This document shows positions 30,772-34,297 of a DNA stretch of 64,000 nt, piece by piece (the first letter of the stretch is position 1; each line of letters starts with the position of its first letter). Both the position numbers and the translations under genes were made by a program. The notes under the pieces were generated by a model. The model was not told the origin of the DNA, did not search any database, and worked only from the letters and a program-made list of their open reading frames with translations. The stretch comes from Coniferiporia sulphurascens (Eukaryota; Basidiomycota; Agaricomycetes; Hymenochaetales; Hymenochaetaceae), in assembly GCA_002794785.1 (NCBI GenBank), contig NBBA01000001.1, positions 1,178,001-1,242,000 on the forward strand, read 5' to 3'.

Positions 30772-32490
30772 ATGCAATGTCGTCTCGCAAAATCGAGGGT
30801 GGCCGGAGCTGGGTGCAATAACCAGGCACTTGTAAGGTTACAGGTACCATTAGCAGGAAGGATACATAGGAATTCCCGTGAAAAAAGGGAAAGAAAAATG
30901 CACTCCGGCACGTGACTGTATAGCAATGGTGGTCCATACGGGAGAATACTCGGCAGGGCGGATGGTTCAAGCCGCAACTGCATCCGCTGCTAGCTAGTTA
31001 ACCGCCCGAGCGAGGTCCAAGCGACTTATGCGTGTGTCTAGGCAACCGTCTTTTGCTTGACGGAATTCCTGGACACCTTGCCGCTCGGGATGCTGGATCA
31101 GGGCGTCCGTCCGCTCGGGGATTGCAAAAATAAAATGTAAAATGTAAAAAGGGGAAGGAAAAAACAACAATAATTAGCATTTTTCGCTTCTGAGAGTTTC
31201 AATGGCTTTCTTTTCGGGTCCCATACATACACCCTTCACATTGGTATCACTGGTTTTGACTTGACCTTGACTGACCTGCGACGCGATGTGGTGCGCGCGC
31301 CTATCTCGCGCTGGCGACGTGTTTGAGAGTATAAATGCGTCTAGCCTCAGGAGGCCAGCGGGCAGTGGCTCAGCGTGTGCATGTGCACCCAAGAGGGCGC
31401 CAGCTGGCTAGCCTTCTGTCTCGAAATTGTGCGTTTTTAATGTTCTCGTATCCAAGGGTTGTGTGACTCTTGAGCTGGCTCCCCTTGTATCGGCGGCCGC
31501 ATCTCCCGGCACACCCTCTTCGAAAGGAAGGCGGCAATATATCCCCGAGCTCGGAATCGGCGTCAATAATCATAATTTCGAGCCCCAGAACAAGAAACAG
31601 CAAATCCATTTAAATAAGAAAATATATTACAAGCGAGGATTAAAATACGAACGAGAGCATATATAAACGACAGCGTGGAACATGCAAGAGAGGAGAAGAA
31701 ATGTGTTATTGGACAGCCAAGCAGGAAAGGTGCACATGGACAGAAGCGTTTAAAAAGGTTTACAGACACCCTGTTTATGCGGACCTGATGTCATCAGGGA
31801 GAATCACACACACAGATTTGTACCCGCGATACCCACGATTCCACGAAACAGATTGGAAAACCCACGCCGCCCTCGCGAGATCTAATAAGAAGGCATCGGG
31901 AGGGAGCAATGGAGACAAAGGGTCTCATGTACTAGTCGGCGTCTCGGAGCACGTAGCAAACGACGCGAAGAAAAGACAGAAAAGAATTGAGACCGCAGCT
32001 TGAATGCTGACATGAAATCTTCGGCGCAGCCGTCACAATAGAATTTTGCGGATCTAAGCGCGAAACGGGGACCATGCGATGTCGGTTAACAAGAGCGGAA
32101 TGCGTTTTAGCCTCACGTCATCAACAGTAGGGCTCGGAATTTGAACGTACGTTATTGCTTATGATTGTGCTATATAGACGTATGACGCACGCCAGGACGT
32201 CGCGGTGTATTTCAGGAGTTGATGTGGTAGTTGGTACCGAGTTGCGCGACAGATCCATAAGATTTATATTTTTGGTAGTGCATGAAGGAAAGAATGACGG
32301 AAAACGGAGAGAAAGCAAGGGAGGCAAGAAAAGCTCAGTTAGCGCTCCGTCGATCATGGTATGAATAAACATCAGAATGATAATGCAGAAGAAATAAACA
32401 AAGAAAGCTGAGCGTCCCCAGCTCACATTATTCAATGTGCTTGCAACCAGTACCGGAATAAAAAAATAAAACCATAAAGATGAAGAAGTA
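30772..32490. other. Stretch without a supported gene
   Basis: A plus-strand frame at 31701-32003 (100 codons, Lys-rich tail) is the only candidate and has no family resemblance or splice context. The rest is AT-rich, mostly 3' of the G-alpha gene. Confidence 0.35.
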
Positions 32491-34297
32491 TCAGATAAGG
32501 GCGGCCTTGGTGAGATTGCCCCGAAGTGCAATGCTGATCGGGGAAGTGAAGGTGAAAATGATTCGTTGAGCCAATGTCGAAAGAAAAAAGCGCGGGCGGG
32601 GGGGAATGAAATAAACTCACTCTATGGGCAAGAACAAGCGAATTCGTCAGACATCATGCACCCCTTCGGTGAAGCACAAACTCACCTTCAACTGCAGCCA
32701 TCACAACACGCAAAAGCGCCGTATCCGTTGCATTTGTGAAACTTAGAGGTGGGGAGTTAGCATACGACAGCAGTGCATTACATCTGTTGGGAGCGGATAG
32801 GCCTTGGCCACGTACTGGACATAGATTTCCCGCTCGCGATTCTGGCCAGACTTGCGCGACAACTTCGTAAATCGCGACCTAAAGTATTCCCGACCTTGCT
32901 GAATGTTGCCAGACTCGCCTTCGAAATCCTTCAAAGCAAGGCATATTTCAATGGAACGAAAGAAATAAAAACCATCAGAAAAGAACCCACTGGAAATGTA
33001 TTCCTAATATCAGAATGCTTGATCTTCTCACTAAAGATGTCGTCCTTATTCAGGAACAGGATCTTTGAAATATCTAAGTGCCTATCGTCCATGAGCAAGT
33101 AAAGGACGTACAATTGAGGTTGTCCGGAACCATTGAGAATGACATATTGAATCCCAAATTGTCATTGCATCTTGCATTTGATTCTGCACGCGCGTGAGCT
33201 ACCCCCTCTGTTTGTCGCTGTTTGCAAGGCGGACTTACCGCATCCTTGTCTTCTACTAGGCACTGATCGTACCCGCTCAGACTCACTAAGAAGAGAATAG
33301 TTGTCACATCTTGAAAGCAGTGTATCCATTTCCTTCGTTCGCTTTTTTGCCCACCCACGTCAACCATGAGCATTTCATGTGAACGCAATTTGAACATGGT
33401 CTCGGTAATACCGACTGTGCGTGCCTTGCATCGGATGATGTCCTGCTCTGTGGGATAGTAGTTCTTTTGGAACAGGCGACCGAGATCATTGTAGAAATAT
33501 GTTAAACTAGACAATCGCGTGCATAAGCAACGCGAAATAATGAAAGCGAAGACAACACACTTATCAGGTAAAGCTGCCTCGTTTCCCCGTGACCATCCCT
33601 TTTGAACTACTTCATCTTCCCATAGCAACTTGAGCGGTTCATAATAACTCTCTGGAAAGGGCTGGCCGTCCTTGACGTCCGGTGGGTCATCCACAAGCGC
33701 AGTATACTGCTCAACGTCTTCCGAGATGTGCAGATCCATGTCCTCCAGCGCTTCAAGCAACTGCTTCATACCCTGCGTGATATTACTGAAGACGAGCTGT
33801 CGGTAGAATTCGAACTCTTGCGGGGAGAAATGCAAATCGTGGATGAGACGCATTTGCTGATGGGACACAAGTCAGTAAATCAAATTCAGAATTGAAAACA
33901 CAATCAAGTCCATCGACGTAGCAAATGTATAACGTAGACCAAATCCGTGCCTCCTCGCACCGACGGACGATATGTGCGCAACATCCGAGCGCGCCACCAA
34001 GACCGTCGACCATGCCACGTACAAAGATGTATCCGCAGTCATTAACGATTTAACAACCCACCTTTAGCACTGTCGATTTCCCTGAATCACCGGAACCCAA
34101 TAACAAGACCTATTTTCACAACAGTTGATCAATGGTTTTGCCAATCTGACGAAGCAGAACACAATTGCGGAAAAACAACCTACCTTGACCTGACTATCCA
34201 ACTTGACCTTCGCATCCCTTAGCTGTCGCTCGGCCTCGCGGTGTCTTGCTTTCTCCTCTTCGGAGACGCCTCCGGCTGCCGACACGCACGCACCCAT
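32491..34297 (-). CDS. Heterotrimeric G-protein alpha subunit
   Basis: This GTP-binding switch relays receptor signals at the plasma membrane. Exons: 34297-34184, 34109-34062, 33856-33561, 33506-33239, 33183-33112, 33062-32991, 32928-32816, 32741-32686, a single base at 32622, and 32533-32491. They total 1083 nt, 360 aa, a normal G-alpha length. Gly2 and Cys4 (MGACVSA) predict myristoylation and palmitoylation. The P-loop is GSGDSGKST (residues 43-51), switch II DVGGQKSERRKW, base recognition NKDD and TNATDT, and the C-terminus LRGNLTKAALI. Two catalytic positions depart from canonical G-alpha: Asp46 for the usual P-loop Glu and Lys180 for the arginine finger. An alternative model without the one-base exon uses donor GTTTGT, gives VEGDIALR and stays in frame. 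The third intron is longest (205 nt). Confidence 0.93.

Follow-up and report, generated by a model that had tools for sequence, protein, structure and literature searches.

Does a single nucleotide act as a complete exon in a G-alpha gene of Coniferiporia sulphurascens, and which protein ends depend on it? The gene lies on the minus strand, like all features given below, of the stretch of DNA that we analysed (64,000 nucleotides, hereafter the window). A preliminary description of this DNA had proposed a one-base exon between two introns of the gene. The reading frame and the comparison with orthologues bear this out and support the interpretation: judging from these sequences, there is hardly any doubt that the one-base exon exists, and it is not confined to the genome of C. 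sulphurascens.

The gene and its one-base exon

We spliced and translated a model of ten exons (32491..34297, introns totalling 724 nt). As previously described, its coding sequence of 1083 nt stays in frame, giving 360 amino acids and a stop, the normal length of a G-alpha protein. Relatives of this gene carry the names GPA2-like or G-alpha 4. A profile search matched the Pfam G-alpha family PF00503 with 181.1 bits against a cut-off of 48.8 (C1:1211242-1211859). The GTPase motifs of G-alpha proteins are GxGxSGKST, DVGGQ and NKxD, and the translation of this product, isoform A, contains GSGDSGKST, DVGGQ and NKDD. Its end aligns ungapped across the Asp codon discussed below to two solved G-alpha proteins. 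Domain score, GTPase motifs and the normal length of the alpha-5 end thus all identify a heterotrimeric G-alpha.

Exon 8 (32686..32741) ends in GCA GTT GAA G, so that GTTGAAG closes at 32686 and the donor GTGAGT follows. Intron 8 (32622..32685) runs from this donor to CCCATAG and includes a branch-point-like CTGAC (32650-32646), which we identified by eye. Exon 9 is the next base, an A (32621), and a second perfect GTGAGT follows it at once, opening intron 9a (32534..32620), which ends in GATCAG. The preliminary description had the exon end, the donors and the acceptors right and erred by one nucleotide in its counting: intron 8 is 64 nt long and not 63, the exon base lies at 32621 and not 32622, and intron 9a has 87 nt and not 88. 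Directly after the GATCAG acceptor, exon 10a (32491..32533, 43 nt) opens with CATTGCACTTCGG and encodes tail A, which is a C followed by IALRGNLTKAALI and a stop; orthologue P0001 has the same tail.

The G of exon 8, the A and the C of exon 10a form the Asp codon GAC, with the A in its middle. The resulting peptide VEDIALRGNL had been predicted, and the nearest transcript-type orthologue (P0001) is identical over the stretch. Skipping the A does break the frame and lose the tail, yielding VEALHFGAIS.. in place of VEDIALRGNL. By hand count, the shifted frame meets no stop for about 120 codons beyond the regular one (window about 32490-32121), probably by chance. The exon is therefore one base between an AG and a GT donor (CCCATAG/A/GTGAGT at 32621), and without this base its out-of-phase neighbours would not be joined in frame. 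The splice motif itself is unremarkable: YAGAGTRNGT occurs three times in the 64-kb window against 1.37 expected, and 15 of 100 shuffles reach as many. The motif alone is not special, and the case consequently rests on the frame and on the relatives; it is the place, where the frame needs exactly one A, together with the orthologues, that lifts it above chance. A tandem duplication as the origin of the two introns is unsupported, since beyond their common GTGAGTTT start introns 8 and 9a have a similarity score of 14, which 516 of 1000 shuffles reached.

Orthologues and annotations at the Asp codon

We assembled 162 orthologues from two overlapping searches of proteins clustered at 90 percent identity: the best 120 of 3717 matches to the whole protein (search 1) and all 80 of 80 matches to the tail region (search 2). 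They comprise 95 sequences from genome annotation or NCBI-type records and 67 known from short assembled-read contigs alone (1.2-4.8 kb; sources jgi, lgn and ena). The latter are most likely spliced transcripts, a status that we take from size and source labels: of the 67 contigs, 22 cannot hold the reading frame together with nine introns of 45 nt, 53 cannot hold it together with 724 nt of introns, and three exceed 2,500 nt. The best matches include Sanghuangporus, Schizopora, Phellinidium, Rickenella and Phellopilus, among which Schizopora and Phellopilus belong to the Hymenochaetales. Species names are absent from the transcript-type rows, and the counts of orders below cover failing annotated species.

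Among the orthologues listed, all 67 transcript-type rows read V-E-D (V-Q-D in P0140) followed by a tail, against none of the 95 genome-annotated ones. The query of search 2 is the tail region and could favour VED, so we counted search 1 separately: within its best 120 of 3717 matches, VED or VQD with a tail was found in 49/49 transcript-type and 0/71 genome-annotated rows. A further search, kept outside the main counts, gave among its best 120 of 7985 matches five more transcript-type rows of the same clade with VED and a tail, and an Agaricus bisporus sequence ending VEE-stop. P0075 (Flammulina filiformis, VEE-stop) is an nr record without a contig; we counted it among the 95, and it would count against the pattern if it were a cDNA. 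The one-base exon of the relatives is here deduced from protein sequences. A pattern search for the DNA of fungal relatives returned one match in viral contigs and 43 in genome contigs, none of them from a relative.

The ways in which the annotations break are mostly those that a missed one-base exon predicts. In 35 of the 95, the model reads into intron 8 (VEG..); by hand count, the next residue can be encoded by GTRNG in 27 of these rows, the protein ends immediately in three, and five are different. Another 27 end VEE-stop, which corresponds to GAA GAG TRA, i.e. the one-base A and then the GTRA of the next donor. VEE-stop taken alone is also compatible with read-through of a single phase-2 intron. 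The intron 8 side is seen in congeners: Schizophyllum amplum ends VEE-stop and S. commune reads VEGKYSS, Russula earlei ends VEE-stop and R. decolorans reads VEGKICC. Psilocybe cyanescens (VEE-stop) likewise differs from P. cubensis, which is of the skip type. Twelve annotations have Gly in place of Asp with the tail intact, as would result from a mismatch forced at one base, and seven gain one residue through the second GT of GTNNGT (VEG-x-I.LR). Seven others begin VEA, and five of these agree with tail A translated in a frame shifted by one base, a fit found at random in 1452 of 285,798 cases (0.5 percent); from their sequence, we read these five as skipping of the one-base exon. The other two VEA rows do not fit. 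The rest are three VEV, one VEEYV, two with the D and no tail, and one broken earlier. Among the species looked up, failing annotations span 11 orders of Agaricomycetes (Hymenochaetales, Russulales, Polyporales, Agaricales, Boletales, Atheliales, Corticiales, Cantharellales, Sebacinales, Phallales and Hysterangiales).

Some individual records deserve mention. The annotations P0138 (Serendipita sp. 400) and P0083 (Serpula) read VED and then lack a tail. In Naganishia (Tremellomycetes; P0184 and P0164), annotations end VQE-stop, as in Naganishia liquefaciens P0184, or break near the Asp codon. Dacryopinax (Dacrymycetes) P0137 reads VEGTVLRTNL, with Gly at the Asp codon.

On these sequences, the one-base exon may predate the Agaricomycetes, but annotations of Filobasidium, Cryptococcus and Kwoniella are intact at the Asp codon. 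Ends of 13 residues resembling the second tail described below (tail B) occur in Testicularia, Moesziomyces, Glomus and Orbilia (such as D-IILTNNLRDIVL, D-IILTQNLRDLVL and D-IILQKNLHTLIL), and ends of 14 residues nearer tail A in Filobasidium and Cryptococcus (such as D-TILRSQLRDMAMI). Of the two tails, B may tentatively be the more ancient.

Two tails behind one exon

The preliminary description missed both the conservation of this arrangement and a second C-terminus, tail B (32169-32033), that also depends on the one-base exon. Tail B starts 321 nt past the stop codon of tail A and reads TATATAG/CACAATCATAAGCAATAAC/GTACGT..GCTTAG/ATCCGCAAAATTCTATTGTGA. Exon 10b (32151..32169, 19 nt) encodes its first part, a C followed by TIISNN; intron 10b (32054..32150, 97 nt) runs from GTACGT to GCTTAG; and exon 11b (32033..32053, 21 nt) encodes IRKILL and a stop. 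To reach it, intron 9b (32170..32620, 451 nt) would use the same GTGAGT donor as intron 9a and the acceptor CTATATAG, skipping exon 10a, as the tail B transcripts of relatives indicate. Joined behind the one-base exon, tail B gives VEDTIISNNIRKILL. Exons 10a and 10b each begin with C, so that both tails require the A at 32621 to complete GAC and the frame.

Relatives are divided between the two ends. In the transcript-type rows, 39 of 67 have a tail A, resembling D-I-V-L-R-x-N-L-x-x-A-A-L-I, and 28 a tail B, resembling D-[AST]-I-I-S-x-N-I-R-x-I-M-L; the latter count includes P0068, whose odd, shorter tail DAIVSKNIMTLL was scored as tail B. The last 12 residues of tail B in C. sulphurascens, TIISNNIRKILL, are identical to the annotated tail of Schizopora paradoxa (P0003), and in 289,542 bases of this genome (the window and the fetched stretches) each half of tail B in its splice context (AG/C..GT for exon 10b) occurs in a single place. 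In Lactarius tabidus, the annotated protein (P0145) finishes with VEGTIRDIML. It retains just the apparent second tail B exon, suggesting that tail B is divided between exons in the same way in Russulales.

Tail B could nevertheless be unexpressed in C. sulphurascens, a relic or an occasional by-product behind a real one-base exon. Its acceptor CTATATAG lies 451 nt away and behind a nearer one, and we did not see a strong branch motif just upstream of it by eye. We find this unlikely, because the 12-residue match to Schizopora is exact across two exons with good splice sites, and because the 28 rows with tail B indicate both expression and conservation of this tail among relatives.

Another possibility is that tails A and B belong to two paralogous genes in the relatives and do not arise by alternative splicing. 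We compared the tail labels with a tree of 73 sequences stripped of their tails (the 67 transcript-type rows, the five from the further search and the window), built with a quick method. The labels need 19 changes, at least seven of them forced by starred branches, against a shuffled mean of 23.3; they are slightly clustered, as 15 and 17 of 500 shuffles gave counts this low. This clustering speaks for two paralogues, as does the identity of 91.6 percent between the closest A and B bodies. No A/B pair was seen in one named species either, but isoforms of one gene merge into one cluster at 90 percent identity, which hides such pairs. Two paralogues would require a single label change, yet A and B intermix on the tree. 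Moreover, in the window both sets of last exons, 10a and 10b with 11b, follow a single gene body, and a single locus of this type matches at high identity in the genome, with nine rows at other places matching at 32-52 percent. Paralogy is thus very improbable, and the intermixing gives the two tails the appearance of alternative last exons in a single gene, comparable to vertebrate GNAO.

The G-alpha family is expanded in this genome. There are at least seven further G-alpha-like places (C15:898764-899627, C3:1611824-1613017, C4:1662613-1664218, C1:49086-50378, and others on C12, C14 and C11), and the one on C15 is largely one open frame. In a rough frame scan of eight paralogue loci (L001-L008), the end was readable only in L002, where the last exon continues through AIQDILL with no intron at the Asp codon.

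The exon itself could be dispensed with if a single intron ran from the weaker donor GTTTGT (32676..32681) to the GATCAG acceptor at 32534; the peptide would then be VEGDIALR, one Gly longer. The cDNA would then read GAAGGTGACATT (VEGDI) or GAAGGTGAC at the junction. The preliminary description had named this rival; its site does exist and is the second GT of the GTNNGT donor, it is a canonical GT-AG solution that keeps the frame, and the seven annotations that gain a residue choose the equivalent site. The extra Gly, however, is found in 0/67 transcript-type orthologues. This solution also ignores a complete intron of 64 nt (GTGAGT, CTGAC, TAG), and GTRNGT donors open each of the gene's seven undisputed introns. 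Two scans over 264,000 bases of the same genome are dominated by background and were given no weight: donors of the GTRNGT form are in excess in both, whereas GTTTGT is mixed and not clearly separated, being followed by branch and acceptor slightly in excess in one scan (21/163, z 1.9) and with no excess in the second (5/82). We consider the single intron highly improbable. An assembly or sequencing error that makes the frame look broken is barely conceivable: the DNA-level examination covers one assembly, but the 95 annotations of relatives come from many named species, and in none of them is the Asp codon intact.

Proposed splicing of the exon and comparison with known systems

The reading that we prefer, and regard as very probable from sequence comparison, is a one-base exon A (32621) between two spliceosomal introns that feeds tail A or tail B. 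Splice-site footprints are larger than the five bases spanned here by AG, exon and GT, and one spliceosome could thus hardly hold both sites. Most likely, intron 8 would be removed first, joining the G to the A and leaving GAAGA/GTGAGT, an ordinary strong donor; the reverse order is possible on paper too. This donor would then be spliced to exon 10a or else past it to exons 10b and 11b. The predicted cDNA junction is GAAGACATT for tail A and GAAGACACN or GAAGACACAATC for tail B, with the junctions GAAGA/CACAATC and AATAAC/ATCCGC. One gene would make two G-alpha proteins that differ just in their last 12-13 residues, at the end of helix alpha-5. This end of G-alpha touches receptors. By analogy, the choice of tail probably sets receptor coupling; the accessible text of PMC5896119 also gives the C-terminal end as a receptor contact. 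We infer the splicing in C. sulphurascens, the order of the two splices and the effect on receptor choice.

A bolder idea, which we hold tentatively and find doubtful, is that the one-base exon is kept as a splicing gate. As its two splice sites could not be engaged together, the donor that chooses the tail would exist only once intron 8 is removed, and the choice would be delayed until both acceptors are transcribed. It might then be a class-wide, perhaps Agaricomycotina-wide, device that determines how two G-alpha receptor specificities are balanced in mushroom fungi and that wrong gene models have hidden so far.

If the preferred reading is true, a core signalling gene of mushrooms contains a deeply conserved one-base exon, a depth of conservation so far reported in the open-access literature searched from plants alone. 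The correct end appears in 0/95 genome-annotated models, and there the receptor-contacting part of G-alpha would be missed or misread. The gene would also provide a test system for how the spliceosome handles an exon too small for two simultaneous splice sites. In the open-access literature searched, with subscription papers mostly outside the search, we found no report of this exon or of alternative tails in fungal G-alpha, and a one-base exon feeding two alternative receptor-contacting tails is unreported there.

Stwintrons, or zero-length recursive exons, keep no base between two introns. They share with this locus two splices almost at one place that cannot be engaged together, but the exon base of G-alpha is kept in the mRNA; such a structure is ruled out here, as the A is retained as Asp in 67/67 transcript-type rows. 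One-base exons as such are already known, some conserved across land plants and one in Fusarium. Those of land-plant APC11 and VPS55 are described as widely conserved and absent from reference annotations (PMC8831610), with support from RNA-seq and RT-PCR (PMC8831610; PMC4674806); in Arabidopsis APC11 the base is an A (PMC4674806), and VPS55 of early plants has transcripts with and without the exon (PMC8831610). The G-alpha exon resembles them in being one base between AG and GT, critical for the frame, missed by annotations and, as in Arabidopsis APC11, an A. In contrast, as far as the accessible parts of these sources go, skipping in the plant genes alters the N-terminal part, and the alternatives are inclusion or intron retention and not two last exons.

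The Fusarium CYP621A exon is claimed as the first in a fungal gene (PMC12940212). According to the text available from that source, it too lies in a fungal nuclear gene with annotations wrong at the site and with the frame and a conserved motif dependent on the exon; unlike G-alpha, it belongs to a rarely expressed P450 of one ascomycete genus, its base is G, and alternative tails are not mentioned there. Mitochondrial examples are described in placozoan cox1 (PMC5436844) and, with group II introns, in rnl of Ophiostoma and Ceratocystis (PMC12308204). Like the G-alpha exon, these are one base between two introns, but the available text describes self-splicing group I or II introns and not spliceosomal ones.

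The tails have their own precedents. SKI7/HBS1 is described as an ancient case of alternative splicing that yields two proteins and is kept in Ascomycota and Basidiomycota (PMC3597508). It would share with G-alpha the making of two proteins by splicing in fungi; the gene is different, and that source, in its accessible part, attributes the choice to alternative 3' splice sites. The closest parallel is vertebrate GNAO, whose Go1 and Go2 arise from mutually exclusive pairs of last exons, with a comparable preGNAS in Cephalochordate (PMC5896119); alternative last exons of human GNAO1 are also given in PMC7599900. As far as these sources were accessible, they describe animal genes with exon duplication and mention no one-base exon, and the fungal tail exons differ in being very short (43; 19 + 21 nt) and in encoding clearly dissimilar tails. 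In both cases, one G-alpha gene carries two sets of last exons that encode two C-termini, and the two receptor-contacting tails would be the fungal parallel of Go1/Go2.
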